DNA from: Blastocatellia bacterium
GTDB taxonomy: Bacteria > Acidobacteriota > Blastocatellia > HR10 > J050
Assembly (NCBI GenBank): GCA_026985075.1
Contig: JALSQX010000025.1
Coordinates: 1-62,222, forward strand
DNA length: 62,222 nucleotides
Direction of reading: 5' to 3'
Shown: positions 6,474-62,222 of the stretch, piece after piece
Position numbering within the stretch: position 1 is the first letter of the stretch
Layout: each line of letters starts with the position of its first letter
Notes under the pieces: generated by a model
Databases searched by the model: none
What the model was told of the DNA's origin: nothing
Seen by the model: the letters and a program-made list of their open reading frames with translations, nothing else
Translations under genes and position numbers: made by a program

Positions 6474-6502
6474 GAAGACGCGTCACTCATAGGAGAGGAA
6501 CT

Positions 6503-11542: not shown

Positions 11543-11607
11543 ACTCATCGCGTCGGGAACGCGTGATCGATGATTCTTCACCGAGGATCGATGAGGAGAG
11601 GCGAATC

Positions 11608-12980: not shown

Positions 12981-13009
12981 TTGCTCGTCCACATCAGTAA
13001 AGTTATAAT
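12981..13009 (+). promoter_or_regulatory. sigma-70 type promoter giving a leaderless mRNA
   Basis: TTGCTC (12981-12986), 17 bases, then a perfect TATAAT (13004-13009). The usual start point seven bases downstream is the G of the GTG start codon at 13016, so the transcript would have no 5' leader. Confidence 0.6.
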
Positions 13010-13015
13010 TGACCC

Positions 13016-13732: not shown

Positions 13733-13951
13733 TCGTCTGTTTCACCCCACTCCAGTCCATGAGACGTCAACACGCTGGCGTATACGATGTGCCAGACGAA
13801 CGCCAAGCCATAGGGTGTCCCGCGCCCGGAGGTCGGCTTGGGACGCATCTCCCCATTTGAGCTTTTGAGATCATGACCGCCCCGATGTCGTCTGCTCTTC
13901 CCGCCGCTTTTCATGTATTTTTCGCTCCTCTGCGCCCTCTCTCATAAGGGG

Positions 13952-13968
13952 TGAACTCTGAGAGTTCA
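13952..13968. repeat. palindrome, possible operator
   Basis: TGAACTCT-G-AGAGTTCA has perfect eight-base arms around one base. It lies 80 bases upstream of ATG 14048 and is the only strong dyad in this spacer. Confidence 0.45.
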
Positions 13969-14047
13969 AATCCCGATGGTGATGAGCAAAGTGTGAGCAC
14001 TCCATTTATTGGGACACAGGGACCAAATTCAGGCTAAGGAGGACACG

Positions 14048-15103: not shown

Positions 15104-15132
15104 GTCCCATGACGCCCGGTCCCTCATGGGAC
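15104..15132 (-). terminator. hairpin at the end of the molybdoenzyme operon
   Basis: GTCCCATGA and TCATGGGAC form a perfect nine-pair stem with an 11-base loop that overlaps the stop codon of the tetrahaem gene. No T-run follows, so it could be a 3' stabiliser or a factor-dependent end. Confidence 0.4.
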
Positions 15133-18430: not shown

Positions 18431-19115
18431 ACCACTCTCCTTCGATGAGATAAATGACCTTCGGTTCGGTCCCCAGGTCATCCAACAATCTGAATGCACG
18501 CGCGCTCCTGGCCAGTTGAGCCACCGTGCTCATGGGATCGTCGAGGTCGCCGAAGAACATGGCTCCGGCCGGACACGATTGCACGCAAGCGGGCACATAG
18601 TCGCCCTCTCGCAACTCCCGCTGCTCGGCGCGGGCCTTCTCTTTGGCCTTCTGAAGGCGATGATGACAGAACGTGCACTTTTCCACCACCCCCTTTGGCC
18701 GCGTGGAGACATCGGGATTGAGGCAGGCTCGCATCTCCTCCGGCCACTGGGGAGCATACCAATTGAAGTACTTCACCGTGTACGGGCAAGCGGCAGTGCA
18801 GTATCGACATCCGATGCACCGGGGGTAGATCTGAGCCACTAATCCCTCCTCGTTCTTGAACGTGGCGTATACCGGACAGACCTTCGTGCAGGGAGGATTA
18901 TCGCACTGCATGCAGGGCCGCGGGATGTAGCGAACGCGGACCCGTGGATACTCGCCCTCGACGATGGGGATGACCTCCATCCAGGAGATCGTCCGCCCCA
19001 TGGCGGCCTGCTCCGGGCTGACAAAGGGAATATTGTTCTCGGCCTTACAAGCAATGACGCAGGCCTGACATCCGGTACATTTATCCAAGTCGATGACCAT
19101 CGCCCAACGAGGCAT
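18408..19115 (-). CDS. four-cluster ferredoxin subunit (DmsB/PsrB/NrfC type)
   Basis: The 235-residue protein contains sixteen cysteines in the pattern for four [4Fe-4S] clusters: CTGCQACVIAC, CMQCDNPPCTKVC, CIGCRYCTAAC, and CTFC with a later CVQSC. It has no signal peptide, as expected for a subunit co-exported with the Tat-dependent catalytic partner. AAGGAGGAG precedes ATG 19115, 12 bases after the molybdoenzyme stop. It links the catalytic and membrane subunits. Confidence 0.93.
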   Translation of the reverse strand: MPRWAMVIDLDKCTGCQACVIACKAENNIPFVSPEQAAMGRTISWMEVIPIVEGEYPRVRVRYIPRPCMQCDNPPCTKVCPVYATFKNEEGLVAQIYPRCIGCRYCTAACPYTVKYFNWYAPQWPEEMRACLNPDVSTRPKGVVEKCTFCHHRLQKAKEKARAEQRELREGDYVPACVQSCPAGAMFFGDLDDPMSTVAQLARSARAFRLLDDLGTEPKVIYLIEGEWYGPRKRA

Positions 19116-19127
19116 CGTCGCTCCTCC

Positions 19128-21593
19128 TTATGCCTTGGAGATCTTCACCCGCGTCGCATATCGTGCCGGCAATCCGCCCAGGCGATCGGCCGCCGGACCA
19201 ATGAGCGCATAGGGATTGACGCCGCGACCACTCGCCCAACGACCGGAGGCTGTATGACCGAGCCCGAGGGGAATGTTCACCACCTCCGGCATAGACCCGG
19301 GATAGAGTTTGGCCCGGATGCGCACCTTCCCATACGGCGATTCCACCCAAACCCAGTCGCCATCGGCGATGCCCAACTTCCGGGCCGTCTCCGGGTGAAT
19401 CTCCAACCAGGAATCCCACTTCACGTGGACGTGAAGTCCGACGATCTCCTGCATCCAGGGGAGATTGGCGCCGCTCCCGGAATTGAGGACCAGCACGTGG
19501 AAGGGATTCAAATGAAATGGGTATTGGCTCTCATCTCCGGCAAACCGAGCGGGTTCATAATGGGGCAAGAAAACCTCATCGCCGCGCGCCGTAATGTTCA
19601 ACTCCTCCAAGAGCGCATCCAGAGGCTGGCCTCGCCGCTCAGCCCGAGCTTCGAGTTCTGCCTTCAGCCGCTGGGAATAGAACTCGAATCTCTTGGATGG
19701 CGTTCGGAAGATGTGTCCCCACTTGCCGTATTCGTGGAAGAGTCCCGACCACCCCCCTCTCTTCACCAGCTCTTCCCAGAACGCCTCGAAGGATGAGAAC
19801 TGGGGAATCCACCATCCCCGCTCTTGCAACTGCCGGATGAAGGCGCCCTCGAAAGATTCGCTGAACACGCGCCCATACCGGGCTTCGTAACATCCCCGGA
19901 CGGAGAACATGAGCACTTCTTTGAAATCCGTCCAGGGGAAGGCGGCGGCCAGCGTCTCGCCCATTCGCCGAGCCAGAGCGAGAATCACATCGCCGGTGTG
20001 CCTGGTCTCATAGAGGGGCTCGATCACCGGTTGAGCTACACCCAATGTCGGAACGCCCGACAACGGCGGCGCCGGCCCATCTTGCCACTTCTCCAGATAG
20101 GTGTGATCGGGCAGAATGAGATCGGCATACGCCGTGCTCTCATCCATGAAGGAAGCGAAACTGACCACCAAAGGAACGCGCTCTAACGCCTCGGCGAAGC
20201 GCGCCGATGTCGGTGTGGAGAAGACCGGATTGCTCGCATAAAGGAAGACAGCCTGTACCTCATAGGGCGTCCCATTCAGGATGCGCTCACCGAGAGCTTC
20301 CAGTGGGAGCGTATCGAGCCAGGGCGCATCCCCCTCGGCCCGATCGAGGCGAGGTCGACGCCGCCCTTCCCGCGCCACCGCATCACTGTTGATCGGCGGC
20401 CAGCGCTTGAAGGGGATCTCCTCCCCGATGAGGACGCCACCGGGCAGATCGAGATTGCCCACCAGCGCATTCAAGGCGTGAATGGCCAGAGCGTTGAACG
20501 CGCCGTTGGAGTGGAGCGTGGCCTCGGCGCCTCCAATGGCCACTGCCGGTCTGGTCGTGGCGAACTGTTTGGCGATCCGAATGAGCGTATCCACCGGGAC
20601 GCCAGTGATGGCCGAGACATTCTCGGGACGATACCTCTCCAGGACCAGGCGTCGGAAGCCCTTGTGGTGCTGGCCTCGGGCATCGGTCCAGTCGTCGAAA
20701 CCGAAGGTATACTGCTCGATGAACCGGCGATCGTAGAGCTCCTCTCGGATCAACACGTAAGCGATGCCCAGAGCCAGAGCGCCTTCGGTTCCCGGGCGAA
20801 TGGGAATCCACTCATCCGATCGCGCCGCCGTGGGCGACAATCGTCGCTCGATCTGGATGAGCTTGGCTCGCGGGCCGGGGCGTTCCTGTCGCAAATAGCC
20901 GTAGGTCCGCGCCAATTGAACCGGCGATCGCCATCCATCCAACAGTTGACAGCCGAAGGAGAGGATGTAGTTGGCGTTCTCCAGATCGTAGCCGAACAGT
21001 TGGTCGAGCCCCTGCATGAACCGATGGGCGATCCGCATCCCATCCGGTTCGTCGGTCGGGAGGTGATTGGGCGTACCGTAGGCTTGACAGAACCTCTCCC
21101 ACAGAGCGCCCATGAGTCCGGTCGGTCGTCCATCGAGGACGATGAGCGAGTGAGGTTGACCGCGTTCTCTCAACTCACCCAGTCGCTCGGCCAACAGATT
21201 GATGGCCTCGTCCCAACCGATGCTCACCCACTGAGTGGACCCTTTCCCTCCGACTCGCTTCATGGGCGTTTTGATCCGGTCCGGATTGTAGACGAGCTGC
21301 AGGCCGGCGTGCCCCAGCGGGCAGAGGCGCCCCCGGTTGACGGGGTGAAGCGGATTCCCCTCCAATTTCACTACATTCCCATCGACGACCCGCGCCATGA
21401 GGCCGCAGCCGCCCGAGCACTGGAGGCACACCGAGGGGACCCACCGCTCAATCCGCTCGGGCCAGTCCGTATAGGCTTGGCCGACCGGGGTCAGCTTGTT
21501 GAACGCGTAACCGGACAGCATCATTCCCGATGTCGCCCCGGCCAGTAATTTGAGAAACTCTCGTCGCTCGATCTTGAATGTCGTCCCATCCAT
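19128..21593 (-). CDS. Tat-exported molybdopterin oxidoreductase, DMSO reductase family
   Basis: The 821-residue catalytic subunit starts at ATG 21593 with GGGAG upstream. A twin-arginine signal (ERREFLKLLAG) is followed by CLQCSGGCG and, about 27 residues on, CPLG, giving a C-x2-C-x3-C-xn-C [4Fe-4S] site. MopB cofactor-binding segments (SFGCQLLDGW, GGAEATLHSNG, LASNPVFSTP-like region) follow, and a C-terminal molydopterin-dinucleotide barrel (LNPFHVLVLNSG onwards). The gene set resembles Psr/Phs, Qrc and alternative complex III; the TorD gene favours an active enzyme. Substrate (polysulfide, thiosulfate, arsenate, selenate or none) cannot be read from the sequence. Confidence 0.88.
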   Translation of the reverse strand: MDGTTFKIERREFLKLLAGATSGMMLSGYAFNKLTPVGQAYTDWPERIERWVPSVCLQCSGGCGLMARVVDGNVVKLEGNPLHPVNRGRLCPLGHAGLQLVYNPDRIKTPMKRVGGKGSTQWVSIGWDEAINLLAERLGELRERGQPHSLIVLDGRPTGLMGALWERFCQAYGTPNHLPTDEPDGMRIAHRFMQGLDQLFGYDLENANYILSFGCQLLDGWRSPVQLARTYGYLRQERPGPRAKLIQIERRLSPTAARSDEWIPIRPGTEGALALGIAYVLIREELYDRRFIEQYTFGFDDWTDARGQHHKGFRRLVLERYRPENVSAITGVPVDTLIRIAKQFATTRPAVAIGGAEATLHSNGAFNALAIHALNALVGNLDLPGGVLIGEEIPFKRWPPINSDAVAREGRRRPRLDRAEGDAPWLDTLPLEALGERILNGTPYEVQAVFLYASNPVFSTPTSARFAEALERVPLVVSFASFMDESTAYADLILPDHTYLEKWQDGPAPPLSGVPTLGVAQPVIEPLYETRHTGDVILALARRMGETLAAAFPWTDFKEVLMFSVRGCYEARYGRVFSESFEGAFIRQLQERGWWIPQFSSFEAFWEELVKRGGWSGLFHEYGKWGHIFRTPSKRFEFYSQRLKAELEARAERRGQPLDALLEELNITARGDEVFLPHYEPARFAGDESQYPFHLNPFHVLVLNSGSGANLPWMQEIVGLHVHVKWDSWLEIHPETARKLGIADGDWVWVESPYGKVRIRAKLYPGSMPEVVNIPLGLGHTASGRWASGRGVNPYALIGPAADRLGGLPARYATRVKISKA

Positions 21594-21634
21594 GGTCGAA
21601 CTCCCACGTTCGATCTCTGACGATCGGGCCCTCC

Positions 21635-22132
21635 TCACCGATGGCAGGCATTGCAATCGGTCGTCACACCATGCTGCCGATGACAGGCGAGACAATCGTT
21701 CATCTTCAACTGGATCTCCGGTCGTGATGGCGGACTGGTGCTCTGACCGATATGACCGTGGCACGTTTGACAGGCGATCCCTCCCAAGACGACGTGCCTC
21801 CGATGCGAGAAATAGACGTGCGCCGGCAACCGCGTGAGCCGCCGCCAGGGGATCTCTTCTCCGCGTTCGGCGTACTGCCGAACTTTCTCTTCCTCGGGAC
21901 TCTCGGTGAGCGGCGTCTCGTGACAGAACAGGCACGTGGTCAGCTTGGGTCGCCCCGCCACCGCCGCTTGCGAGTATCGCTCGTGACACGCTGAGCAGTC
22001 CAGCCCGTTATCGATGTGCACCTTATGATTGAAGGCGATGGGTTGAACGACTTCTGAGAACGGCCTGGCGACCAAATACCCTCCGCCGACGGCCAAGACC
22101 AAGATCACAGTGAAAAGGAGTATTCTGTTCAT
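21635..22132 (-). CDS. membrane-anchored pentahaem cytochrome (c7/c3 type)
   Basis: The 165-residue protein has an N-terminal anchor (ILLFTVILVLAVGGGYLVA) and five CXXCH motifs (CSACH, CLFCH, CQTCH, CLACH, CNACH) with isolated His residues (FNHKVH, YFSHRRH) as probable distal ligands, as in cytochrome c7/c3 and QrcA/ActA-like subunits. It lies 41 bases ahead of the molybdoenzyme and likely passes electrons between the complex and periplasmic carriers. Confidence 0.87.
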   Translation of the reverse strand: MNRILLFTVILVLAVGGGYLVARPFSEVVQPIAFNHKVHIDNGLDCSACHERYSQAAVAGRPKLTTCLFCHETPLTESPEEEKVRQYAERGEEIPWRRLTRLPAHVYFSHRRHVVLGGIACQTCHGHIGQSTSPPSRPEIQLKMNDCLACHRQHGVTTDCNACHR

Positions 22133-47775: not shown

Positions 47776-47891
47776 GCGAAGCCCCGGATAGGGGGGGACT
47801 CGTTCATAGGCTTTCATCCACCATGAAGGACGAAAAGCGAGAGAGCACGAGTCGGCAACTCGCGCCACACCTCTTTTCGGAGGGAAACGAG

Positions 47892-48338
47892 ATGAGCGAA
47901 TCACCCGAACGATCCAGTCGGCGACGGCGTTTCCTCAACTTTCTTCTGGGAACGAGCTGGGGAGCGCTGCTCGTCGCCATTCTTTATCCCATCGTCAAAT
48001 TCCTCATCCCGCCCCCGAGCGTGGAATCATCCCAGTCGAGCGTGGTGGCGGGGACCGTGAAGGAACTCCATCCCAATTCGGGAAAGATCTTCAAGTTCGG
48101 GAGCAAACCCGGCATCCTCATTCGGACGCCGGCCGGAGAGTTTCGGGCCTTTTCGGCGATCTGCACGCACCTGGGATGCATCGTGCAATATCGACCGGAT
48201 TTGCGACACATTTGGTGCGCCTGCCACAACGGGCACTACGATCTCTATGGCCGAAACATCGCCGGACCACCGCCGCGGCCGCTGGAGCGATACCAGGTCA
48301 ATATTCGTGGGAATGAGATCATCGTCTCCAAGGGGTGA
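47892..48338 (+). CDS. second Rieske iron-sulfur protein
   Basis: The 148-residue protein starts at ATG 47892 with GGAGGGAAACG upstream. It closely parallels the Rieske protein at 8602 over its full length: same membrane helix, CTHLGC and CACHNGHYD ligand motifs and the same GPPPRPLE ending. No cytochrome b gene is adjacent here. It could replace the other Rieske subunit under other conditions or serve the flavoprotein encoded two genes downstream. Confidence 0.92.
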
Positions 48339-49903: not shown

Positions 49904-50303
49904 ATGCCAAAATATTCGACCATCGCCGTGGAGAATGGCTGAGGAGAGCGTCCATAGAGCTGGTTCCCAGGATGAGGTTTCGATGAGATCGTTGATTGAC
50001 TCATGAAGAAGAGACTTCCTCATCCTGTTCACGGGCCATCTCCTCGGTGCGCTCTCGGTCAGCTAAACTACCCCTGATAAATGGTGAATCGTTCACGCCA
50101 TGGGACATTGGGAGGACGATCCGAGATACCCTCGGGGAAATAAAGAAGGGCGAGAGTATGGGCAGAATGGTTCCGCCCATGAACTGGCCAGTCTCTCGGA
50201 ATCCGGGAGCCTCTTCAGCGCTCATGGCATTTGCGGAGTCGTTGTCGTGGCAATAGGTCACGAGAAGCCCTGTACCGGTGTTTACCACTCGAATGGACCG
50301 CCA
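49904..50303. other. spacer without a supported gene
   Basis: No open frame with a ribosome binding site or recognisable domain is present, and no sigma-54 box is seen. The promoter of the next kinase lies at its right end. Confidence 0.45.
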
Positions 50304-50312
50304 TGCTATAAT
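50304..50312 (+). promoter_or_regulatory. extended -10 promoter next to the kinase start
   Basis: TGCTATAAT is a perfect extended -10 box. The start point about seven bases on leaves only about five bases before ATG 50324, so the mRNA is nearly leaderless. No good -35 box is seen. Confidence 0.5.
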
Positions 50313-50323
50313 GTGAAGCAGTC

Positions 50324-52345
50324 ATGCTGGAATTGGTTTCATCGCTCAACCTGCTCTTCACCCGAACCTTCGAGAACCAGTTTGTCTTCAACCTGTTTCA
50401 GTTCCTCCTCTCTGGCGTCGTGGTGCTGGTCATTCTCAAGGCCCTGACCAAACCCTCACAAACCTTTCCTCAAATTGAGAAGTGGTTGCTCCTTTGCGCC
50501 TTCTCTCTCTTGGGCGTATCGTTCGGCGTCGTGGCCACCTACTCGGGCATCAACTTCTTCTCGCGGGACTCGCTCGATGGAGAATATATCTTCACGCTGG
50601 CTCACTTTTTCAGGACGACAGGGTTGATCTTCTTATCGGCGGGCCTCGTCCCCTCGGCGTCCAAGACGTGGCGCAACCTCACGCCAAAAATTGGGAGTCT
50701 CATCGGAATCACGATGTTCCTCCTGCTCGCCGACGTCCTGCTCGGGCGCACTCACGGTCCAGGCGATGTGGTGTTCGATATCTTCAATGTGGCCGTGATC
50801 ATCTTCACGCTCGTGTTCATCTTGAAGAGGCGAACGCTCGGAGAGAAGGCGAGTCTGCTCGCCCTGCTGCTCTTGTGCTTCTCTTTCATCACCCACATCA
50901 CTCAATCAGTGGTGAGCCGGGAGACCGCTCTTCTGCTCTGGAACGGCGAACAGTGGCTCACCTCCATTTCGCTCCTCGTCTTCGCTCTGGCCATCGGCGA
51001 GCGCAGCGAGGACCTGTTCGACAAGGTTTTCATTCGATTGAATATCACGTTCATCATTCTGGCCAGTTTGATCATGCTCATCATCGTCCAGATGGGGCGA
51101 GCCGAATATTTCAAGATGATTCAAAATCGCAGCCTGAACCTGGCCGAGTTCCTGAGAGGGCACATCATCTACTATCGGAACCAGGGAAAGTCTCTGAAGG
51201 ACATCCTGGAGGGAGAGGATATCCTTCGGCAGGTCGTCGTGGAGTTCGGCAATCTGCCCGAACTGCGCATCGTTCAAATCAAATCCGGTGAGGAACTGGC
51301 TCAGTTCTCCATCGATGATCATGGGGTGATCGACTATCGGCTGGAGCCTCTGTCGCCCTTGCCACGCGGCGCGGCGCTCGCCGAGAACTACCGCCTGGAT
51401 GTACGCCATCCCAATCAATATTTTCACATCCTCTCATTGCCCTTCTCTTCCCTGACGGAGCGAGGGGGAGAGATTCGCCTCTATGGTACGCGGACGTACC
51501 TCAATCACTACATCGCTCAACACATCATCCTGATCTTTTCGCTATTCACCGGCACGGTCGCCCTCTCCACCCTCTTGATCGGCATGGTCATCAATCACGC
51601 CAGCAAGACGATCCAACAACAATCGCGAGAAATCGAACAAACGCAACGACAGCTTCTCCAAGCGGCCAAACTGGCCTCGGTGGGCGAACTGGCCGGAGGC
51701 GTGGCCCACGAGATCAATAACCCCACGACCACCATCCTCTCTCGAGCGAGCTATCTGCTGGAGTCAGCCGAGAGGAAGGGCTACTCCGAGAGCGATCGCG
51801 AAGATCTTCGAGCGATCGTCCAGCAGGCCCAACGCATCGCCAAGATCACGGCTAACCTCCTCACCTTCTCGCGCCAACATGGATTCGAACTGAGCCGCGT
51901 CGACATTAACGAACTGATCGACAAGAGCCTCGCTCTCATCGACTATCGGCTCAGGGGAAGCTCGGTGAAATTGCGCAAATTCTTTCAAGAGGAGATCCCT
52001 CCTATCCTGGGAGACGCCAATCGCCTCATCGAAGTATTCATCAACGTGTTCAATAACGCCATTGACGCCATGCCAGGAGGCGGAACCTTGACCATTCGAA
52101 CTGAACATCGAGTCGGTGAAGAGGCCGTTCGGATTGAGATCATGGACACAGGGATCGGCATTCCCGAAGATCACCTCCAGCGGATTTTCGATCCTTTCTT
52201 CACCACCAAGCCACCGGGGAAAGGAACGGGGTTGGGTCTGGCCATCAGTCACGGTATCATTAAAGATCATCAAGGGCACATCGAAGTGGAGAGTCGAGTG
52301 GGCGTCGGCACCAAAGTGATGATCACGTTTCCTCGAGGGGGATGA
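50324..52345 (+). CDS. membrane sensor histidine kinase (multi-span input domain)
   Basis: The 673-residue protein has about seven membrane helices in residues 20-235, a periplasmic or juxtamembrane sensor part (about 255-400), another helix (about 405-430), a coiled coil and the kinase core with GGVAHEINNPTTTILSRASY and ATP-binding DTGIGIPEDHL and [13 protein letters not shown]. The response regulator gene begins within its stop codon (ATGA). No haem motif is present. Its signal is unknown; the sigma-54 promoter downstream at 54032 is a likely final target of the pair. Confidence 0.9.
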   Translation: MLELVSSLNLLFTRTFENQFVFNLFQFLLSGVVVLVILKALTKPSQTFPQIEKWLLLCAFSLLGVSFGVVATYSGINFFSRDSLDGEYIFTLAHFFRTTGLIFLSAGLVPSASKTWRNLTPKIGSLIGITMFLLLADVLLGRTHGPGDVVFDIFNVAVIIFTLVFILKRRTLGEKASLLALLLLCFSFITHITQSVVSRETALLLWNGEQWLTSISLLVFALAIGERSEDLFDKVFIRLNITFIILASLIMLIIVQMGRAEYFKMIQNRSLNLAEFLRGHIIYYRNQGKSLKDILEGEDILRQVVVEFGNLPELRIVQIKSGEELAQFSIDDHGVIDYRLEPLSPLPRGAALAENYRLDVRHPNQYFHILSLPFSSLTERGGEIRLYGTRTYLNHYIAQHIILIFSLFTGTVALSTLLIGMVINHASKTIQQQSREIEQTQRQLLQAAKLASVGELAGGVAHEINNPTTTILSRASYLLESAERKGYSESDREDLRAIVQQAQRIAKITANLLTFSRQHGFELSRVDINELIDKSLALIDYRLRGSSVKLRKFFQEEIPPILGDANRLIEVFINVFNNAIDAMPGGGTLTIRTEHRVGEEAVRIEIMDTGIGIPEDHLQRIFDPFFTTKPPGKGTGLGLAISHGIIKDHQGHIEVESRVGVGTKVMITFPRGG

Positions 52346-53748
52346 ACATGAGTGGCGAGCGCATCCTGGTCGTCGATGATGAACAAGAAATCCTGGTCAG
52401 TTGCCTCAAGATCCTGCGAGATCGAGGGTACCAGGTCTCAACCTGTGCCGATGGAACCGAGGCGCTCACCTGCCTCAAGCAACACCCCTTCGATCTGTTG
52501 CTCATCGACCTGAAAATGCCGGGCAAAGACGGCATCCAGATCCTGGAAGAAGCCAAAAAGATCGATCCCGAAGCCGAAGTCATTATTTTCACCGGCTATG
52601 CCACCATCGAATCGGCGGTGGCGGCCATCAAGAAAGGGGCCTTCGACTACATCCAGAAGCCCTTCACCGCCGATCAACTGAACATCGCCGTGGAGAAGGC
52701 ATTGGAGCACCGACGGCTGATTCGAGAGAACAACCAATTGCGTCTGCAGGTGGCCGGGACCCACGGCTTCGAGAATATCATCGGTCGGAGTCCACAGATG
52801 CAGTTGGTCATCGAAATGGCCCGGAAGGTGGCCCCCACCGACGCTAATATCCTATTGACGGGCGAGAGCGGGACGGGGAAAGAACTCCTGGCTCGGGCCA
52901 TCCACGCGAGCAGTCGTCGAGCTCACGGTCCCTTCGTGCCCATCGACTGCGCAGCCTTGCCCGAGACGCTCCTGGAAAGTGAGTTGTTCGGATACGAGAA
53001 AGGGGCGTTCACCGGCGCCCACAAGACCAAACGCGGCCTCCTGGAATTGGCCCATACGGGCACCGTCTTCCTCGATGAAATCGGGGAACTCTCACCCTCG
53101 CTTCAAGCCAAGCTATTGCGCACCCTCCAGGAGCGCGAATTCCGCCGCCTGGGTGGCGAGCGGATCATCTCGGTGGACATCCGTCTCATCAGCTCGACCA
53201 ATCGAGACCTGGAACAAGAAGTAGCCAAGGGGCGTTTTCGTGAGGATCTATATTTCCGTCTCAAAGTTGTGGAGATCGAACTTCCTCCCCTGCGGGCTCG
53301 AGCTGGAGACATCCCTCTGTTGGCCGCTCATTTTCTGGAGAAATACCGCTCGCAATATCAGAAACCGGTCCGCGGCCTCGCTCCCGAGGTGCTGGAGGCC
53401 CTGCAAGCCTATAGTTGGCCGGGAAATGTCCGCGAACTGGAGAACACCATCGAACGGGCGGTGGCCCTCGCCGAGCGGGAGATGATCCAGTTGAGCGAGT
53501 TGCCCGATTACATCACCTATCGGTCGAGCGCCCCGCCGATGGACGCCCCGTCAGGGACGCCCCCACTCGATGTCATTCGCCAAAAGAGCGCCGAGGCCGT
53601 CCAGAAACCCTACCTCATCCAACTGCTGCGCCGACACAAGGGCAATGTCTCCGAAGTGGCCAAAGAGGCGGGCACCAACAGGAAGATGATCTATCGCCTG
53701 GCCAAACGATTCTCCATCGATATCGACGCCTTCCGCGAAGAGTCGTAG
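52342..53748 (+). CDS. NtrC-type sigma-54 response regulator
   Basis: The 468-residue protein has a receiver ([26 protein letters not shown]), an AAA+ domain with GESGTGKE and the sigma-54 loop [11 protein letters not shown], Walker B FLDEIGEL, and a Fis-like C-terminal helix-turn-helix ([20 protein letters not shown]). It is translationally coupled to the upstream kinase. The cupredoxin/Cyc2-like operon with a sigma-54 promoter starts about 280 bases downstream and is its most likely target. Confidence 0.94.
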
Positions 53749-54031
53749 CGATACGCCCCCGCTCCTCTCCCCACGACCTCCGTCCCTCCCTCGAAAATCA
53801 CCACAGAGGCGAGAGAGAACACAAAGATCCTCCAACAGGCTCCGTTCATCCCCTCGATGTGGCTCGTGCGCGCCATGGGCGACTCCTGTGACCAACATGT
53901 CCCACAGCCTCCCCACCATGGGACGTCGAAGGAACACGAAGGGGCTCACGAGGCTTCCAGTCCCCTTCGGGGGTAAATTCTATCCATTGAGAGATCAACA
54001 AGTTAGAAGCGGGCGGGGATCAAGCCGAGAT
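53749..54031. other. control region of the cupredoxin/Cyc2-like operon
   Basis: No gene is seen. GTCCCA (53899-53904) and TGGGAC (53919-53924) form a spaced dyad about 110 bases before the sigma-54 promoter, a possible activator site. A small CCCC-TTCG-GGGG hairpin is at 53962-53973. Confidence 0.35.
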
Positions 54032-54047
54032 TGGTACAGGGCTTGCA
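54032..54047 (+). promoter_or_regulatory. sigma-54 promoter of the cupredoxin/Cyc2-like operon
   Basis: TGGTACA-GGGC-TTGCA has two mismatches to consensus and correct spacing. The start point is expected near 54058, only about six bases before ATG 54064. Confidence 0.7.
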
Positions 54048-54063
54048 TATGACATCTTGTACA

Positions 54064-54861
54064 ATGGTGTGGAAGCTCAGGAGACAACAGAATGGGAGAA
54101 GAGCGAACGCCAAGGTCGCAACCATCACCTGGCTGGGAATGATCGCCCTGGCTTCGCTTATACCTCCATCGACATGGCCCGCACTGATGGATGGGACGGG
54201 GACCATCAGAGGAGTGGTCACCGTGGGGAGCAGAGTTGACGGAGTGAACATGAACGAAGTCGTCGTCTCCGTTGAGGACATCGCAGGGGATTTCCATCAC
54301 CTGGTCCCCGAAAAACATGCTGTCATGGATCAGCGAGGGCTCACATTCGTTCCTCACATTCTCCCCATTCTGGTGGGCACGACGGTGGATTTCCCCAATA
54401 GTGATCCCGTATTCCACAACGTCTTTTCCATCTCCGCTCCTAAGCGGTTTAACCTGGGCATGTACCCTACTGGAGTGATCAAATCGATCACCTTTGACAA
54501 GCCGGGTCGCGTCGACGTGCTGTGCAATGTTCACCTGGAGATGCACGCCATCATCCTGGTCAAACCGAATCCTTACTTCACCACCTGCGATGAACGAGGA
54601 GAATTCAGCATCCCTGACGTACCCGCCGGGCGTCATCGGGTACAAGCCTGGCATGAAGCGTTCGAACCCGTGATCCAGGAGGTGGTCGTTCCCGCTCGCG
54701 GAACGGTTCGAATTCACTTCTCCCTGACCGAACGCCTCGCTCAGAGGGGATATGCTCGGCCCCAGGCTGAGTTCGCCTGGATATGGCGGAAGGAGCGAGG
54801 CACCGTCCATGGGGATGCGCACGGAGACTCATCCCAATCAACCAAGGAGGTGAGCTTATGA
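54064..54861 (+). CDS. exported cupredoxin-like protein 1
   Basis: The 265-residue protein has a basic N-terminus and export helix (TITWLGMIALASLIPP). A blue-copper-like domain (about 45-180) shows the ligand set His in DPVFHNVFS and Cys, His, Met in VLCNVHLEM. A carboxypeptidase-regulatory-like beta domain (about 175-235) follows. It is the first gene of an operon that continues with the cytochrome-porin by an ATGA overlap. A periplasmic copper electron carrier is likely. The start at 54064 is chosen because it follows the sigma-54 transcript start; no Shine-Dalgarno is present. Confidence 0.75.
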   Translation: MVWKLRRQQNGRRANAKVATITWLGMIALASLIPPSTWPALMDGTGTIRGVVTVGSRVDGVNMNEVVVSVEDIAGDFHHLVPEKHAVMDQRGLTFVPHILPILVGTTVDFPNSDPVFHNVFSISAPKRFNLGMYPTGVIKSITFDKPGRVDVLCNVHLEMHAIILVKPNPYFTTCDERGEFSIPDVPAGRHRVQAWHEAFEPVIQEVVVPARGTVRIHFSLTERLAQRGYARPQAEFAWIWRKERGTVHGDAHGDSSQSTKEVSL

Positions 54862-56243
54862 GACGGATCGCCATCATCATTCTTTTTTCTCTTGTGCTGG
54901 CCATCGTTTATCTGGCCGCACCGCAGCAGCAGAGTCAGGCCATTCCCGCCTTTGCGCGCAAGTATCGAACCAGTTGCACGACCTGTCACGTGGCCCCGCC
55001 CAAGCTGAACGCTTTCGGTCGCGCCTTCCGGAACCTCGGATATCGCATGCCTAAGGGCGACGAGGAGCTGGTCAAACAGGAAAAAACATCGCTCGGAGCT
55101 CCTGCCTGGAAGCGCGTCTGGCCGAGAGGGATCTGGCCGTCCGATATTCCTGGTGGAACATTCTTTGGCATCGCCCTGAACTCCAATTTCACCGTCAATC
55201 CCAGCGCCAATGTCACCACCGAATTCGACGGCATCGAGGAGATCGGCCTCCTGCTGGGAGGAACGGTCGGAGAGACGTTCTCCTTCTTCGGCGACGTGGA
55301 CCTCTTCGAAGAAGGGAAACCGGGAGGGATTGGTCGATTGTTTGTGAACTATACGCCACGTCGGTATTTCAATGTTCGCGTCGGCCAGTTCGAACCCCGG
55401 GCAGTTCCCTTCTCTAACCACCGGCGACTGACGCGACAGACGTCGTATCTGGCCGATATTTTCCCCACCATCCCGGCGGGGAATTTCTTCGGCTTCTCGC
55501 CCAACCAGCGCGGCATCGAGATCTGGGGTGGCGTCGAAGGTCCGGGGCAGAGAGGGGGGCTCCTCTATGCTTTCGGCGTGGTCAATGGCGGTTTCGGCGG
55601 CGCGGCCGAGACGCTCCGGGAATCGTCGGTAGGAAGCCTCATCACCGAGATCGAAGAGCACGCCGAGGAGGCCGGAGGGGAATTCGATGTGAATTCAGGG
55701 AAGGACGTCTACGTTCAGGCCTCGTACAAAATCGGTGGTCTCGGCGTATTCGGTGGAGGGGCCAAGGAAACGCTCCAGCAGATGAACAACTGGCGCGACG
55801 ATTCCCTCACCCTGGGGGGATACTTCTATCGTGGGACGACTGGTGCCTTCCTCGAACAGGGTGGTGGAGAGGTCTTTCGCAATGACGGCAATCGATTCAT
55901 TCGCACGGGAGCCACGTTCGACTGGTGGTTCAAAGACCTCAATCTGTTTGGTGGTTACCAATTCAACCGGGACACCTTGAAAGATGGTCGTCAGTTCGAT
56001 GCCGGAATCACCACCGTAGAGGCTCATTACGTCACGCCTTGGCCCTGGATCATCCCGGCCGTCCGATTCGAGAACGTGAATCCCACGTTCGGACCGAGTT
56101 TTCATCGCACCTCGCTGTCGACCACGCTCATGTTGCGAGCCAACGTGCTGTTCACGCTGGATGGCGTCGTCAACAGCAACCGCGTCCCCGATCTGCCGCC
56201 GTTCGATGACCGGTTTCGAGTGGGGTTCAGAGTGTATTTCTGA
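54858..56243 (+). CDS. Cyc2-like fused mono-haem cytochrome and outer-membrane porin
   Basis: The 461-residue protein starts at ATG 54858 with a perfect AAGGAGGTGA and has a signal peptide. The mature N-terminus reads AIPAFARKYRTSCTTCH followed by LNAFGRAFRNLGY, closely like the start of Cyc2 fused cytochrome-porins (FAR..G..C..CH, LN.FGR.FK..GY). The remaining 400 residues are beta-barrel strands ending in RVGFRVYF with C-terminal Phe. Cyc2 oxidises Fe(II) at the cell surface. Whether this relative is an iron oxidase or another outer-membrane electron port is not certain. Cupredoxin genes flank it on both sides. Confidence 0.8.
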   Translation: MRRIAIIILFSLVLAIVYLAAPQQQSQAIPAFARKYRTSCTTCHVAPPKLNAFGRAFRNLGYRMPKGDEELVKQEKTSLGAPAWKRVWPRGIWPSDIPGGTFFGIALNSNFTVNPSANVTTEFDGIEEIGLLLGGTVGETFSFFGDVDLFEEGKPGGIGRLFVNYTPRRYFNVRVGQFEPRAVPFSNHRRLTRQTSYLADIFPTIPAGNFFGFSPNQRGIEIWGGVEGPGQRGGLLYAFGVVNGGFGGAAETLRESSVGSLITEIEEHAEEAGGEFDVNSGKDVYVQASYKIGGLGVFGGGAKETLQQMNNWRDDSLTLGGYFYRGTTGAFLEQGGGEVFRNDGNRFIRTGATFDWWFKDLNLFGGYQFNRDTLKDGRQFDAGITTVEAHYVTPWPWIIPAVRFENVNPTFGPSFHRTSLSTTLMLRANVLFTLDGVVNSNRVPDLPPFDDRFRVGFRVYF

Positions 56244-56261
56244 AGGAGGCGCGCTCCTGAT

Positions 56262-56282
56262 GGGAGCGCCGGCTCGGCTCCC
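56262..56282 (+). other. RNA hairpin between cytochrome-porin and cupredoxin 2
   Basis: GGGAGC, a nine-base loop and GCTCCC form a six-pair stem in the 87-base spacer. Probably a processing or partial termination point. Confidence 0.35.
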
Positions 56283-56330
56283 GTAGAGATGGCGACACGG
56301 CGAACATATTCTGAGAGAGGAGGACTGATC

Positions 56331-56918
56331 ATGAAAAGGATTATGATCTGGCTGACCATGCTCATCATCAACACCGTTTCCATACCCACCCTATCGTCTG
56401 CCGCTCGCGATTCGTTGGTGGCACCTGCCCTCCCCAACGGCTGCGTGGTGACGGGGAAAGTTCCAGGGGGCGTCAATCCGAAGAATGCCGTCGTGTACCT
56501 GGAGGGTGTGCCCTTCGCCGGGCGACCGGCGCCGATGCACAAGGAGATGGATCAGAAGAATCTCCGATTCACTCCCCACGTCCTGGCCATCACCGTCGGC
56601 TCGCAGGTGACCTTCCTCAACAGCGACACGGTCAATCACAATGTCTTCGGCGTGGGGGCGGACATGTTCGATCTGGGCACCTGGCCTCCGGGCCGGAGGC
56701 GGACAAAGACGTTCACCCGCCCCGGCGAGGTGGCCATCTTGTGCAACGTCCATCCCGAGATGTCCGCCTATATTCTGGTCTTGAAACACCCCTATTTCGC
56801 TCAACCGGATGCTCTGGGCCGGTACAAGATCGCCGGCGTTCCCCCGGGAACCTACACGCTGGTGATCTATCAACCGGAGAGGAAGCCGATCAAAAAGAAG
56901 ATCCAGGTCGGCTGTTAG
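56331..56918 (+). CDS. exported cupredoxin-like protein 2
   Basis: The 195-residue protein starts at ATG 56331 with GAGAGGAGG upstream and a signal peptide (IMIWLTMLIINTVSIPTLSSA). It repeats the plan of cupredoxin 1: copper ligands His in TVNHNVFGV and Cys, His, Met in ILCNVHPEM, then a small beta domain (GRYKIAGVPPGTYTLVIY). The two proteins are paralogues that bracket the Cyc2-like gene and likely shuttle electrons from it across the periplasm. Confidence 0.82.
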   Translation: MKRIMIWLTMLIINTVSIPTLSSAARDSLVAPALPNGCVVTGKVPGGVNPKNAVVYLEGVPFAGRPAPMHKEMDQKNLRFTPHVLAITVGSQVTFLNSDTVNHNVFGVGADMFDLGTWPPGRRRTKTFTRPGEVAILCNVHPEMSAYILVLKHPYFAQPDALGRYKIAGVPPGTYTLVIYQPERKPIKKKIQVGC

Positions 56919-56924
56919 TTGCCA

Positions 56925-56955
56925 TGGTGGGGAGCCATAAGCCTGCTCCCCACCA
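56925..56955 (+). terminator. strong hairpin after cupredoxin 2
   Basis: TGGTGGGGAGC and GCTCCCCACCA form a perfect 11-pair stem with a nine-base loop, six bases after the stop codon. No T-run follows; it may end part of the transcripts or protect the upstream mRNA. Confidence 0.5.
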
Positions 56956-57063
56956 AACAGGATGGCTCGGGGTCGCCCAATCGTTCCGGATGTCCGCCCG
57001 ACGACAGACACAGCGTCAAAGGAGATTCAACCTCGCGCCTGAACAACCTGGAGGTGATTGGTG

Positions 57064-57951
57064 ATGCCGAAGAAGCCGAAACCATTCTTGAAGAGAGCGG
57101 TGGCCGGAGCATTTCTCATCTGGATCGTGACGCTGTGCGCACACGATGGCCACAGTGCCAATGGGGGTCAGGTCACGCCCGTTTCGGGACCGAGCTGGCT
57201 CAATGCCTTGCGGATCCCATTTGAGTTGAGCTGCATGGGACGTACGGGAAGATGGGGCCCTCCGCCACCCGTGGAGCAAGAGGAGACCAATGGAAATGGT
57301 TCAAACTCTGATCTGTTCATCCTCACCGGAGCAGACCTTTACCGCTACAGTTGTCGAGCTTGTCATCGCCCGTCCGGATTAGGTTGTGGTTCGGAGATCA
57401 AATCGCTCCTCAATCCCGTCCGGACGGCGTCGGCCGATTACGTGCAAAAGATGATGGCCGCGCGAGGGCGGCCCATTCCTCGCGCCTTCGCCGAACGGCT
57501 GGCCGCCCAATCGGCCTCGTCTTTGCTCCAGCGATTACAGCAGGGCGGCGAGAAGATGCCCTCCTTCGGATACCTCCGCGCCGACGAAGTCAATGCCCTG
57601 CTGCATTACCTCCGAAAGCTGGCGGGGTTGCCCCAGACGAGCCGACCAGAGCCTCGGTTGATCGAATCCTGGCCTCGGGTCGGTGAACTCCTGGTGAAAG
57701 GGACCTGCCACATTTGCCATAACGCCACCGATGAGGGGAGCCCGTATGGCCTCATCAATGCTTATGAGCGCATTCCCTCTTTGGCCGAGATCGTCGGCCA
57801 CAGGACAATGCAGGAAGTGATCAATAAGGTTCGGCGAGGGGCTATCGTTCCCGGTGAGCGTCGAGGGAGAATGCCGATCTTCTCCTACTTGACCGAACAG
57901 GAAGTGGCGGCCATTTATCTTTACCTCCAGATGTATCCACCCCAACCCTGA
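57064..57951 (+). CDS. di-haem cytochrome c with two class I domains
   Basis: The 295-residue protein starts at ATG 57064 with GGAGGTGA upstream and a signal peptide. The first domain has CRACHRPSG (about residue 97) and a Met ligand in GEKMPSFGY; the second has CHICHNATDEG (about 217) and GRMPIFSYL. It is the last gene of the cupredoxin/Cyc2-like operon and probably takes electrons from the cupredoxins to an oxidase or reductase. Confidence 0.85.
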   Translation: MPKKPKPFLKRAVAGAFLIWIVTLCAHDGHSANGGQVTPVSGPSWLNALRIPFELSCMGRTGRWGPPPPVEQEETNGNGSNSDLFILTGADLYRYSCRACHRPSGLGCGSEIKSLLNPVRTASADYVQKMMAARGRPIPRAFAERLAAQSASSLLQRLQQGGEKMPSFGYLRADEVNALLHYLRKLAGLPQTSRPEPRLIESWPRVGELLVKGTCHICHNATDEGSPYGLINAYERIPSLAEIVGHRTMQEVINKVRRGAIVPGERRGRMPIFSYLTEQEVAAIYLYLQMYPPQP

Positions 57952-58358
57952 GGGGTCGTCCATGATGCGGTGGCGATGGCGAGCCGGCCGAGAACCGCTC
58001 TCCGTCGATGAATGATGATCGATGAAGGAATCGCCCATGGACTCGCGCTCATCATGAGCGTGAAACGCGCCGCGTCGCGAGCGAGTGGCTGACATTGCCT
58101 CCACCGAAATCGCCCATAGTCCAGCGCGCCATATCATAGGGATAAAATCCCTGCGCGCTCTGACATGACGGGCCCAAGCGATCCTCACCAGAGAGACGAC
58201 CGCCGACGTGGCGGTCAATCAGCATGACCCGTCCATCGGCATTGTCGTACAGCCATCGAGTGAACGTCTTCGCTGTTCTCCGATGCATTCGTTCGCATAG
58301 GCGATAGAATGCCAGCTGTGATAAAATAAGCTTTGATCAATTCTATCTCGACTGGTGG
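57952..58358. other. spacer without a supported gene
   Basis: No domain-bearing frame, strong dyad or sigma-54 box is seen. A TAAAAT box near 58322 could be the -10 of the following kinase gene but lacks a clear -35. Confidence 0.4.
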
Positions 58359-59558
58359 GTGAGCGAGATTCATCCGATGGCTGAAGGGAAAGGATTCGGG
58401 GTGAGCAAAGAGGATGACGCCATGGATCGCCAGAGCGCCAATCGCTGGTTCGTCCCACTTCTGCTCGCGCTCGGCATTGGCGGCGTCACCCTCCTCCACT
58501 TTCGAACGAGCACCGAGCATGTGCTCCTTCACCAGATCTATCAACGACTCTATTACATTCCCATCATCTATGCCGGTTATCGCTATGGCGTGCTCGGTGC
58601 GCTGATTGCGTCTATCTCCAGCGCGGTTCTGTATGCTCCGCACATCTTCCTTCAGTGGGAGCACCGCTACATCTATATGCTCAATCAAAATGTCGAACTC
58701 ATCATGTTTCAAGTCATCGCCTTGGTGACCGGTCTCTTGGCCAATGCCGAGAAGCGAGAACATCGGCGGTATGAACGAGCGGCCCGGGAACTTCGCGAGG
58801 CTTACGACGAACTCAAACAGGCCTACGATCATCTCGTCCGCGCCGACCGGTTGGCTTCGCTCGGGGAAGTCTCGGCGGGCATCGTTCACGAAATCCGTAC
58901 GCCGCTGGCCTCCATCAAGGGAGCGGTCGAAATCCTGGAGAGTCCCACGACCTCGGCCAGCGCCAAGGCCGAGTTTTGTCAGATCATTCGGCGCGAAGTG
59001 GACCGGCTCAATCGATTGGTGGAAGAATTCCTCCAATTTGCGCGCCCGCGCCGCCCCGAGCGGTTGCCGACGGACGTGAACGAGATCGTTCGCGCCGTCA
59101 TCCTCCTTTGCCGAAAACAGGCCACCGAACAGCGGGTGGCGATCGAGACGCACCTCCAGGAACCGCTCCCTTCGGTCCTCATCGATCCAGAACAGATGAA
59201 ACAGGTGCTGCTGAACATCGTCATCAATGGGGTCCAGGCGATGCCTGACGGCGGACTCCTGGAACTGACGACGCGCCAGTCGAATGGCGCCGTCGAAGTG
59301 ATCATTCGAGATCACGGTCCGGGCATTGACCAACTGCATCTGAAAAAAGTATTCGATCCCTTTTTCACCACCAAGCAAAATGGCACCGGTCTGGGGCTTT
59401 CCATCGCTTACCGGCTGGTCAAACAGAACGGGGGCGATATTGACGTATTCAACGCGCCGGGTGGAGGATGCGCGTTCAAGCTCGTCCTTCCCCTCCACGA
59501 CCGAGAACCGAATAGAGACGTGAGTCATGAAAAAGAAACGCATTCTTTTGGTCGATGA
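58359..59558 (+). CDS. membrane sensor histidine kinase (short)
   Basis: The 399-residue protein has about four membrane helices (residues 30-125), a coiled coil and a kinase core with SAGIVHEIRTPLASIKGA and ATP-binding NGTGLGLSIAY. There is no distinct extracytoplasmic sensor. GTG 58359 is the earliest start; ATG 58377 or ATG 58422 (with AGAGGAT upstream) are possible. It overlaps the activator gene by 32 bases and forms a two-component pair with it. Confidence 0.88.
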   Translation: MSEIHPMAEGKGFGVSKEDDAMDRQSANRWFVPLLLALGIGGVTLLHFRTSTEHVLLHQIYQRLYYIPIIYAGYRYGVLGALIASISSAVLYAPHIFLQWEHRYIYMLNQNVELIMFQVIALVTGLLANAEKREHRRYERAARELREAYDELKQAYDHLVRADRLASLGEVSAGIVHEIRTPLASIKGAVEILESPTTSASAKAEFCQIIRREVDRLNRLVEEFLQFARPRRPERLPTDVNEIVRAVILLCRKQATEQRVAIETHLQEPLPSVLIDPEQMKQVLLNIVINGVQAMPDGGLLELTTRQSNGAVEVIIRDHGPGIDQLHLKKVFDPFFTTKQNGTGLGLSIAYRLVKQNGGDIDVFNAPGGGCAFKLVLPLHDREPNRDVSHEKETHSFGR

Positions 59559-60921
59559 TGATAGCTCGCTGCGGCGGGTGCTCGAATATCATTTACGAGA
59601 AGCGGGTTATTCCATCCTCACGGCATCGGATGGACGGGCGGCCTTCGATCTCTTCACCGAAAACGACATCGATCTGGTCATCACCGATATCATGATGCCC
59701 GAGATCAACGGCGTGGAATTGCTTCGCCGGATCAAAGCCATGTCGCCGGAGACGGCGGTCATCGTCATCACAGCTTATGGCTCCATCGAGAATGCCGTCC
59801 AAGCGATGAAACTGGGTGCCTTCGACTACATCACCAAACCGTTCGAGCGTCAGGCGCTCCTGGCCACCGTCGAGAAAGCGCTGGAGATGAGCGAGCTCCT
59901 CCAGGAGAATCGATATCTGAAGCAGTTCATTCAGGATCACTTCACGCTCGAGCATATCGTGGGAACGTCGCGGAAAATGCGCTACGTATTCGAGGTGGTG
60001 AAAAAAGTCGCCGCCACCGACGCGCCCGTGCTCCTTCTCGGCGAGAGCGGGACGGGGAAAGAACTCATCGCCAAGGCCATCCATCAGAATAGCAGTCGGC
60101 GCGATCGCCCCTTTGTCGCGATTAACTGCGCGGCCATCCCCGAAGGGCTTCTGGAATCCGAACTCTTCGGCCACAAGAAAGGAGCATTCACTGGTGCCCA
60201 TGCCGATCAGAAAGGAAAAATTGAAATCGCCGACGGAGGCACGGCCTTCTTCGATGAGATCGCCGAACTCCCCCTCGCGCTGCAGGCGAAACTTCTCCGC
60301 CTCCTGGAGAACGGCGAATACGCGCGCGTGGGAGAATCGTCGCCGCGCCGAGCCGATATTCGCGTGATCGCTGCCACCAATCGAGATATCGAAAAACTCG
60401 TCGAGGATGAGGCGTTCCGCGAGGACCTTTACTACCGCATCAACGTGGTGCCCATCATCCTCCCACCATTGCGCGAGCGACGGGAGGATATTCCCTTGCT
60501 CGCGGATTACTTCCTGCAAGAACTGGCGCAGAAATACAACCGGCCGAACTTGCGCTTCGATAAAGATGTCTTTCACATCTTCAACCATTACTCCTGGCCG
60601 GGAAACGTGCGCGAGCTGAAGAACGTCATCGAACGGATGGTCATCCTCAGTTCCCATGACACCTTGACGGCGGAGCACATTCCTGAACACATTAAGCGTC
60701 CGCCGGCTCACGCCGGAAACGTTCTCATCCAACTTCCCGAAGAAGGCATCGATTTGGAGGAGGTAGAAAAAGACATCATTCGTCGAGCGCTGGAGAAGAA
60801 TCAATGGAATCAAACCAAGACGGCCAGGTACTTGAACATCACGCGCAACACGCTCATCTACCGCATGCAAAAGTTCGATCTTCGAAAGGAGAATGTGGAG
60901 ACCAGCTCGAGAGAGGCCTGA
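59527..60921 (+). CDS. NtrC-type sigma-54 response regulator
   Basis: The 464-residue protein has a receiver ([27 protein letters not shown]), an AAA+ domain with [19 protein letters not shown] and [10 protein letters not shown], and a Fis-type helix-turn-helix ([24 protein letters not shown]). It begins inside the end of the kinase gene. Together with the pair at 50324-53748 it frames the cupredoxin/Cyc2-like operon. Confidence 0.95.
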
Positions 60922-60994
60922 TGAGCACGAGACCCCACGAGACCGGCTGATCCCCATATTCTCACCTCACTCGCCCGCCCGTCGCGTGCAGAAA

Positions 60995-62212
60995 TCAGTG
61001 CTCCCCATGGTGTGGAATTTTTCGCACGCCCTCATACGACAACAACCGGCGCTGCTCGGGACCGAGTTCGCGCAACGCTTCATAGAGCGCGTCAACAGTC
61101 AGTGCCGCTTGAGGTGACCGACTTCTGGCTCGCTCATACAATTCCATCAGGATGCGTCCATCTTCGTCATCTGTTGTGAGCGTGGGGCGCTTCCCTTTGA
61201 CAAATACATTGACGCGGTCTTCCAACCGGTCCAGCCACCATTGGGCCAACTGCTCGGCGGTGATCTTCCGATGACTCCGCAGATTGTAACCGGCCACATC
61301 CGGTTTGAGAATGGTCACGATGGTGAGTTTGGACTCGCCCACCAGGTTCGGCGCGATTTGTACGATCGTTGGCCCCTGAGGACGCGGCTCCCATCGGAAT
61401 AGGGCTTCTGGATCGCGCTTCAAATTCGCGATCGCCTGCCGGAGATTATCCGCGATCGCTTGAGCCCGCTCAATCGTTGAAGGATAAGGTCCTTCGTCCC
61501 GGATGATGAACAGGGCCTGATCGTCAATTCTCACCAATGCATGGGGATGTCCACCGGCAAATCGATCCTCTTTTTCAATTGCTCCCACGCTGAAGCTGAC
61601 GGGAAGGAACTCAGGAGACACGGTGGGAGCTGACGCTCCAGCCTGAGATGGAGACTCAACGGCCGCCTGATCCATCTTCGATTGAGAACCCACCCAGGCG
61701 CGGATGAGGAGAAATCCCAATATCAAGGCGACCACCATCAGCAATCCGATCAAGATGCGCTTAAAGATATTCCGTTCCTCCGGCGTCAACTCGGCAACCT
61801 CCTGACTGGTGGTTCCCGCGTAGCCGCCGAGGGTCAAATCTTGCATCTCGGCGGGCAATGATGCCGCTCTTCCTGTGGGAGGCATATCGGTCTCCGACAA
61901 CCCGGCCGTGCTTCTGGTTGGCGTGGGAGTTGTCCTCACATCTACAGCCGCTCCGCATACATCGCAGAACCGCGCTTGCCGACGCAGCGTGGTCTGACAG
62001 TGAGGGCATTGGCGAGAAGCGGGTGTGGATTCGGGAAACGCCATCGCCGGGGGACGGTCCGGCGGTGCCACGAGTTCTACTCCCTCGCGGGCCCGCTCGG
62101 ATTTTTCGCTCTGACCGGGCTCAACGGTGACTTCTTCGAATTCGCCGCCACAGTATCGGCAGAATCTCCAGGTCGCTTTGGTGGGCGCTCCGCACTGCGG
62201 ACAATAGAGCAT
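60995..62212 (-). CDS. zinc-ribbon membrane protein of unknown function
   Basis: The 405-residue protein starts near the right window edge. Two zinc ribbons (YCPQCGAP-FCRYCGGEF and QCPHCQTTL-FCDVCGAAV) are followed by a Pro/Thr-rich linker, one membrane helix (ILIGLLMVVALILGFLLIRAWV, about 155-175) and a C-terminal domain of about 220 residues I do not recognise. With zinc ribbons inside and the large domain outside the membrane, it may be a signalling or envelope protein. It converges with the last activator gene; only about 70 bases separate them and no terminator is clear. Confidence 0.7.
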   Translation of the reverse strand: MLYCPQCGAPTKATWRFCRYCGGEFEEVTVEPGQSEKSERAREGVELVAPPDRPPAMAFPESTPASRQCPHCQTTLRRQARFCDVCGAAVDVRTTPTPTRSTAGLSETDMPPTGRAASLPAEMQDLTLGGYAGTTSQEVAELTPEERNIFKRILIGLLMVVALILGFLLIRAWVGSQSKMDQAAVESPSQAGASAPTVSPEFLPVSFSVGAIEKEDRFAGGHPHALVRIDDQALFIIRDEGPYPSTIERAQAIADNLRQAIANLKRDPEALFRWEPRPQGPTIVQIAPNLVGESKLTIVTILKPDVAGYNLRSHRKITAEQLAQWWLDRLEDRVNVFVKGKRPTLTTDDEDGRILMELYERARSRSPQAALTVDALYEALRELGPEQRRLLSYEGVRKIPHHGEH

Positions 62213-62222
62213 CCTTTCTCGT

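Follow-up and report, generated by a model that had tools for sequence, protein, structure and literature searches.

We describe a four-gene set in a genome of Blastocatellia bacterium (Acidobacteriota) that very probably encodes an electron conduit across the outer membrane, judging from the Cyc2 fold of its central protein and the partners encoded beside it. The genes lie in a 62,222-bp stretch of contig JALSQX010000025.1 (the window), part of a 5.2-Mb genome that is 98.7% complete. On the + strand, between positions 54031 and 57951, a sigma-54 promoter is followed by the genes of a first cupredoxin (cup1), a Cyc2-type cytochrome-porin (cyc2), a second cupredoxin (cup2) and a dihaem cytochrome c. 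A first-pass annotation of the window had proposed this layout, and its main elements were all recovered: the fused monohaem porin with the published motif and a 16-strand fold, the two type-1 copper proteins on either side of it, the dihaem cytochrome behind them and the promoter in front. Since cup1 and cyc2 overlap by four bases (ATGA) and the later intergenic gaps are of ca. 87 and ca. 145 bases, the genes likely form one operon read as a single transcript. An Rfam search of positions 50000 to 62222 gave no match. As for the use of the conduit, we favour, with some hesitation, the oxidation of Fe(II), with the electrons passing inward.

A Cyc2-type cytochrome-porin with a conserved linker

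Cyc2 proteins have been defined by the motif AxPxFAR[QK][TY] ahead of a single CxxCH, a PxL after it, a length of at least 365 amino acids and a fused barrel (PMC8406198). The protein of the window (54858 to 56243, 461 amino acids) carries all of these motif elements, in the order AIPAFARKY-RTS-CTTCH-VAP-PKL, and its single haem motif, CTTCH, occupies residues 40 to 44. In an AlphaFold2 model made from 27 homologues (mean predicted local distance difference test [pLDDT] value of 80.8, below 50 immediately ahead of the haem motif), the N-terminal signal appeared as a hydrophobic helix at residues 2 to 20 and the barrel had 16 strands. The closest structures had Z scores of 22 to 24 and included Omp32 (Z of 24.3), OprO/OprP (Z of 22.2) and OmpC; a 16-strand porin fold with a likeness to OprO/OprP has also been reported for the Cyc2 of Mariprofundus. 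Searches of PDB sequences returned nothing useful and no Pfam family spanned the whole protein, two members of the set matching Porin_O_P. By every feature of the published definition that can be checked in the sequence or in the predicted structure, the assignment of this porin to the Cyc2 type is supported.

For comparison, we used six plasmid-borne proteobacterial Cyc2 homologues, none of them experimentally verified. Aligned to these by hhalign, the cytochrome domain gave a probability of 99.5% (E value of 2e-23) and the barrel alone 86% (E value of 5e-6), the latter being a weak link with no unrelated porin as a control. Cytochrome and barrel are joined by a linker of ca. 30 residues (MPKGDEELVKQ...LGAPAWKRVWPRGIWPSDIPG; residues 64 to 97, positions 55047 to 55148) that is conserved in the consensus of 27 Acidobacteriota members and appears as a gap in the six proteobacterial proteins. 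The protein shares with the Cyc2 family (McAllister 2020, Keffer 2021) the signal peptide, the single CxxCH with its two flanking motifs, the fused 16-strand barrel and a length above 365 amino acids, but differs in its separate Acidobacteriota lineage, its conserved linker and its cupredoxin neighbour.

Lineage and distribution

A tree of 46 proteins separated the Acidobacteriota sequences from the proteobacterial ones (100/100 support) and placed the window protein in a clade of 37 Acidobacteriota proteins (90/92 support), so that, as far as sequences can tell, it is a member of a distinct Acidobacteriota lineage of Cyc2-type proteins. Since long branches meet at the root, the three most divergent proteins of Acidobacteriota are placed with little certainty. 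In 34 of the 37 clade members a cupredoxin gene adjoins the cytochrome-porin gene, a proportion that holds for this clade but not for Cyc2 homologues at large, since the proteins were picked by their similarity to that of the window.

Matches with E values up to 1e-5 were scattered over 103 of the 396 Acidobacteriota genomes sampled (26%), an upper limit on the share of true members of the family in this sample because many of the matches cover the cytochrome part only. Within the class of the window genome, 11 of 162 genomes had a match, and within its order and family only a genome of the same genus did. Beyond this relative, the nearest proteins (60 to 71% identical) come from other lineages, which suggests that the cytochrome-porin was spread by horizontal transfer. 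The only same-genus relative found, the metagenome-assembled genome (MAG) J050, carries the same operon and probably comes from the iron-rich Jinata Onsen spring, to judge by its J-numbered name (PMC6759342; J050 is absent from the main text of that paper). The presence of cyc2 in the phylum was already known, as four of the six cyc2-bearing MAGs from ferromanganese-nodule sediment are Acidobacteriota and an Acidobacteriota Cyc2 from a Katase hot-spring MAG has been placed in Cluster 3.

Two amicyanin-like cupredoxins and a dihaem cytochrome

The two cupredoxins are paralogous (37% identity over 192 amino acids, E value of 6e-36) and both are predicted to be secreted. The first (54064 to 54861) consists of a carboxypeptidase-regulatory-like domain (CarboxypepD_reg, E value of 3.6e-8), the cupredoxin proper (Copper-bind, E value of 0.045) and a C-terminal extension; the second (56331 to 56918, in an open reading frame from 56289) has a partial carboxypeptidase-regulatory-like domain and a cupredoxin domain (Copper-bind, E value of 1.2e-4, above the cut-off). 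The copper ligands of cup1 read HNVF...C-x2-H-x2-M, and the type-1 copper ligands of cup2 were invariant across 17 aligned members.

The ligand loop of rusticyanin is C-x4-H-x4-M (Cys138, His143 and Met148). The first-pass annotation had drawn a parallel with this protein, which does not hold for the copper partners: the loop is C-x2-H-x2-M in both, as in 36 of the 37 cupredoxins with a readable motif among 38 found near Cyc2-like genes (in the remaining one it is a residue longer; the automatic match of the first histidine looks shifted in three). Profile searches retrieved nitrite-reductase cupredoxin domains, amicyanins and plastocyanins as best matches, with no solved rusticyanin among the best 60 of 97. 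Amicyanin proper was likewise rejected, as the two proteins scored 15.0 and 20.1 bits with TIGR02657 versus a curated cut-off of 110.2. On sequence grounds, we consider them amicyanin-like relatives with the cupredoxin fold, neither amicyanin itself nor rusticyanin-like. Having two of them is not unique to the window, since loci L004, L028, L029 and L037 also have two.

The last gene (57064 to 57951) codes for a secreted protein of 295 amino acids with two CxxCH motifs, in which Cytochrome_CBB3 and Cytochrom_C were matched in two stretches. A counterpart that is 42% identical follows the cyc2-cupredoxin pair in locus L041. The set is reminiscent of the rus operon of Acidithiobacillus (cyc2-cyc1-cup-cox-rus), which likewise unites genes for a cytochrome-porin of the outer membrane, for copper proteins and for a dihaem cytochrome, but that of the window has the amicyanin-type loop, contains no oxidase genes and is preceded by signals of sigma-54/NtrC control.

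Sigma-54 promoter and a co-inherited regulator

The promoter TTGGTACAGGGCTTGCA (54031 to 54047), composed of TTGGTACA-GGGC-TTGCA, scored 14.5 out of a maximum of 14.9, while a best score of at least 14 was found in 0.1% of random 380-bp stretches from related loci. As a loose scan returned hundreds of weak matches, only near-consensus sites were retained. The orthologous site of a 98%-identical relative reads TTGGCACG-GGGC-TTGCA (TTGGCACGGGGCTTGCA in L002/L055), and the same-genus relative L002 keeps both the site and its flanks. Elsewhere, a strong site upstream of cyc2 (score of at least 13) was present in 8 of 35 loci, some of them near-duplicates, versus 3% expected. Because the first base given to the operon in the first-pass annotation belongs to the promoter, cup1 must start downstream of the TTG at 54031, and the ATG at 54064 is its likeliest start.

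Two inverted repeats stand upstream of the promoter. The arms of GTCCCA-N14-TGGGAC (53899 to 53924, ca. -132 from the sigma-54 site) are invariant in L002, with the same spacing and at nearly the same distance, and the repeat is a candidate activator site. In the second (53938 to 53968, ca. -93), the arms have changed in a paired way, from GAAGGGG...CCCCTTC in the window to GAAGAGG...CCTCTTC in L002. A different repeat, TGTC-N10-GACA, absent from the window, precedes the cyc2 operon in exact form in L036, L037 and L039, which makes three of the seven copies found in 420 kb; it resembles the GlrR operator.

The operon had also been described as framed by two kinase/NtrC pairs, and both are indeed present, but only the upstream one seems to belong with it. 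This pair comprises a membrane sensor histidine kinase of 673 amino acids (HK1, 50324 to 52345; HisKA and HATPase_c) and an NtrC-type sigma-54 activator (RR1, 52342 to 53748; Response_reg and Sigma54_activat). In a tree of regulators, RR1 clustered with ten that adjoin Cyc2-like genes, mostly from other families and classes (99/96 support), and fifteen paralogous sigma-54 activators of its own genome fell outside this group. Similarly, its best full-length matches in its own genome were 45 to 47% identical versus 53 to 58% for several of the Cyc2-adjacent regulators, and homologues of HK1 are found beside Cyc2-like genes in L004, L036, L037, L039, L044, L052 and L054. We count RR1 and HK1 as part of the module because RR1 groups with Cyc2-adjacent regulators, to which it is closer than to its own paralogues; like the cupredoxins, it is co-inherited with the cytochrome-porin, and it is probably a dedicated regulator of the module. 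The pairing is common rather than universal, since the Cyc2-adjacent regulators of L034, L042, L048 and L050 fall outside the RR1 group.

The downstream pair consists of a sensor kinase (HK2, 58422 to 59558; HisKA and HATPase_c) and another NtrC-type activator (RR2, 59527 to 60921; Sigma54_activat). RR2 is among the excluded paralogues and does not group with the Cyc2-adjacent regulators of the RR1 clade, while HK2 is kept beside the operon only in L002. Both genes are probably chance neighbours or a lineage-specific addition and not conserved members of the module.

Fe(II) oxidation as the favoured role

In the mechanism that we favour, the two-component system RR1/HK1 would turn on the four genes through sigma-54, and the Cyc2-type protein would span the outer membrane, its barrel of 16 strands plugged by the monohaem cytochrome. 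Dissolved Fe(II) would give up an electron to this protein, which would pass it to the secreted cupredoxins; through these and the dihaem cytochrome c, the electron would reach the respiratory chain of the inner membrane, for which the genome provides one CtaD-type haem-copper oxidase. As no RuBisCO was detected in the genome, the energy gained would serve a heterotroph or mixotroph rather than Calvin-cycle autotrophy. We favour Fe(II) uptake, at somewhat less than even chances, because Cyc2 proteins are known to oxidise Fe(II) (each of the three published clusters has at least one member for which this has been reported), the same-genus relative is probably from an iron-rich spring and an oxidase is present. 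Several points weigh against it, starting with the failure to detect RuBisCO. We found no Fe(II) assay of any Acidobacteriota Cyc2 homologue in the literature, Clusters 2 and 3 include many homologues without a known function and the Acidobacteriota lineage stands apart in the tree from the six unverified proteobacterial proteins. To these have to be added the Rieske/cytochrome b modules into which related operons run, and a similar one elsewhere in the genome that fits quinol oxidation; both here and in Geobacter, such modules would suit a reductive role.

Rieske/cytochrome b modules and the direction of electron flow

With L054 as the query, we found a Rieske gene, genes for two parts of cytochrome b and one for a multihaem cytochrome, all on the same strand, beside the cyc2-cupredoxin pair in 13 of the 20 extended loci (L038, L039, L043 to L051, L053 and L054; L043 and L044 belong to a single genome). 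All but two of these 13 (L039 and L044) also encode an NAD(P) oxidoreductase of the GltD kind. In L054, both parts of cytochrome b and the multihaem protein resemble ExtP, ExtQ and ExtS of Geobacter (E values of 3e-75, 5e-15 and 1e-18, below the curated cut-offs). The full-operon relatives thus share with the Geobacter cluster extHIJKLMNOPQS an ExtP/ExtQ-like cytochrome b, a Rieske protein and an ExtS-like multihaem cytochrome by the porin gene. However, the porin ExtI has no haem motif, no cupredoxin is named for that cluster (PMC5877670) and the Rieske/cytochrome b part is absent beside the genes both in the window operon and in its close clade (L003 to L007). In one locus of this clade (L003), a 14-haem cytochrome of 1,063 amino acids (11516 to 14707) is encoded downstream of the cyc2-cupredoxin pair and a CRP-type regulator.

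These extensions speak for the main alternative, a conduit working in reverse. Carriers in the periplasm would take electrons from the quinol pool and relay them via the cupredoxins and the Cyc2-type porin to an acceptor of high potential outside the cell, which could be Mn(IV), a soluble complex of Fe(III), selenite or tellurite, humics or a partner cell. ExtI is known to affect the reduction of selenite and tellurite (PMC5877670). On contig 48 of the window genome, moreover, genes for a GltD-like protein, a Rieske protein, cytochrome b and a pentahaem cytochrome precede a Sec-type nosZ and nosD (L100), probably as an electron supply from quinol to N2O. Nevertheless, we consider export unlikely, though a serious competitor, as ExtI lacks a haem motif, Rieske and cytochrome b genes are missing from the operon of the window and from its close clade and the Cyc2 proteins verified so far are Fe(II) oxidisers.

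The window also holds an MtrCAB-like locus with a Rieske/cytochrome b part of its own, another point in favour of export. It comprises an MtrC-like decahaem cytochrome, an MtrA-like decahaem cytochrome and an MtrB-like porin with a weak Pfam match (3237 to 8530), and continues to 12783 with a Rieske protein (8602 to 9039), cytochrome b (9043 to 10122) and cytochromes of nine and five haems. The first-pass annotation had called this route reductive; the locus is real, but the label is an assumption given that Rieske and cytochrome b genes follow. MtrCAB, MtoAB and PioAB likewise move electrons across the outer membrane, but with a separate 26-strand porin and decahaem proteins instead of a fused monohaem protein of 16 strands. 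A strong sigma-54-like site is located at 3136, upstream of this locus.

A broader reading can be entertained, which we regard as doubtful. A linker-bearing Cyc2-type porin, an amicyanin-type cupredoxin and a co-inherited NtrC-type regulator might form an undescribed respiratory module of Acidobacteriota. In many lineages this module would pass electrons on to a complex of Rieske protein, cytochrome b and NAD(P) oxidoreductase, giving a complete route of iron oxidation from the outer membrane to NAD(P). On this reading, the window would carry an abbreviated version, with two cupredoxins but without the Rieske and cytochrome b genes. For Acidobacteriota Cyc2, we found no description in the open-access literature of the pairing with a cupredoxin, of the linker, of an NtrC regulator that is co-inherited or of an extension by Rieske and cytochrome b genes.

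A function in metal stress rather than respiration, in which a system under ZraSR-like inducible control would oxidise Cu(I) or Fe(II) at the cell envelope or otherwise handle these ions, appears improbable. The sigma-54 promoter and NtrC-type pair, distantly ZraSR-like (with matches well below the cut-off), would suit it, as would the secreted copper proteins and the failure to detect RuBisCO, but a Cyc2-type conduit with a dihaem cytochrome exceeds the needs of detoxification and the full-operon relatives encode a quinone-linked complex. Least probable is inward flow from a donor other than Fe(II), for instance Mn(II) or reduced humics. In its favour, Cyc2 is a candidate in Ca. Manganitrophaceae, which oxidise Mn(II), a relative at a greater distance (L005) bears a MAG name from the series KW1-S15 of ferromanganese-nodule sediment and high-potential type-1 copper proteins would match a high-potential donor, but there is no donor evidence of any kind and no Mn-specific genes were noticed near the operon.

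The direction of flow matters because Cyc2 serves as a marker gene of iron oxidation by microbes, although the functions of most Cluster 2 and 3 homologues, those of Acidobacteriota included, are acknowledged to be unsettled. If Fe(II) oxidation is true, a widespread phylum enters the iron cycle as an oxidiser besides a reducer, and if export is, surveys based on Cyc2 overcount iron oxidisers. With its compact layout, inducible control, defined partners and dedicated regulator, the operon makes the question testable.

Other electron-transfer genes and promoter-like sites in the window

A second Rieske protein (47823 to 48338), closely similar by eye to that of the MtrCAB-like locus, is encoded without an adjoining cytochrome b and is followed by PII-like and FAD-dependent reductase-like genes. 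On the - strand, genes for molybdopterin-oxidoreductase-like, FeS-like, NrfD-like and multihaem c proteins (15127 to 21989) resemble alternative complex III or a complex of the polysulfide-reductase type. Further near-consensus sigma-54-like sites were located at 23500 (+), 28364 (-), 28860 (+) and 31872 (-), one of them ca. 150 bp before a tetrahaem cytochrome gene (23648) and another ca. 40 bp before a kinase/NtrC pair (28323).

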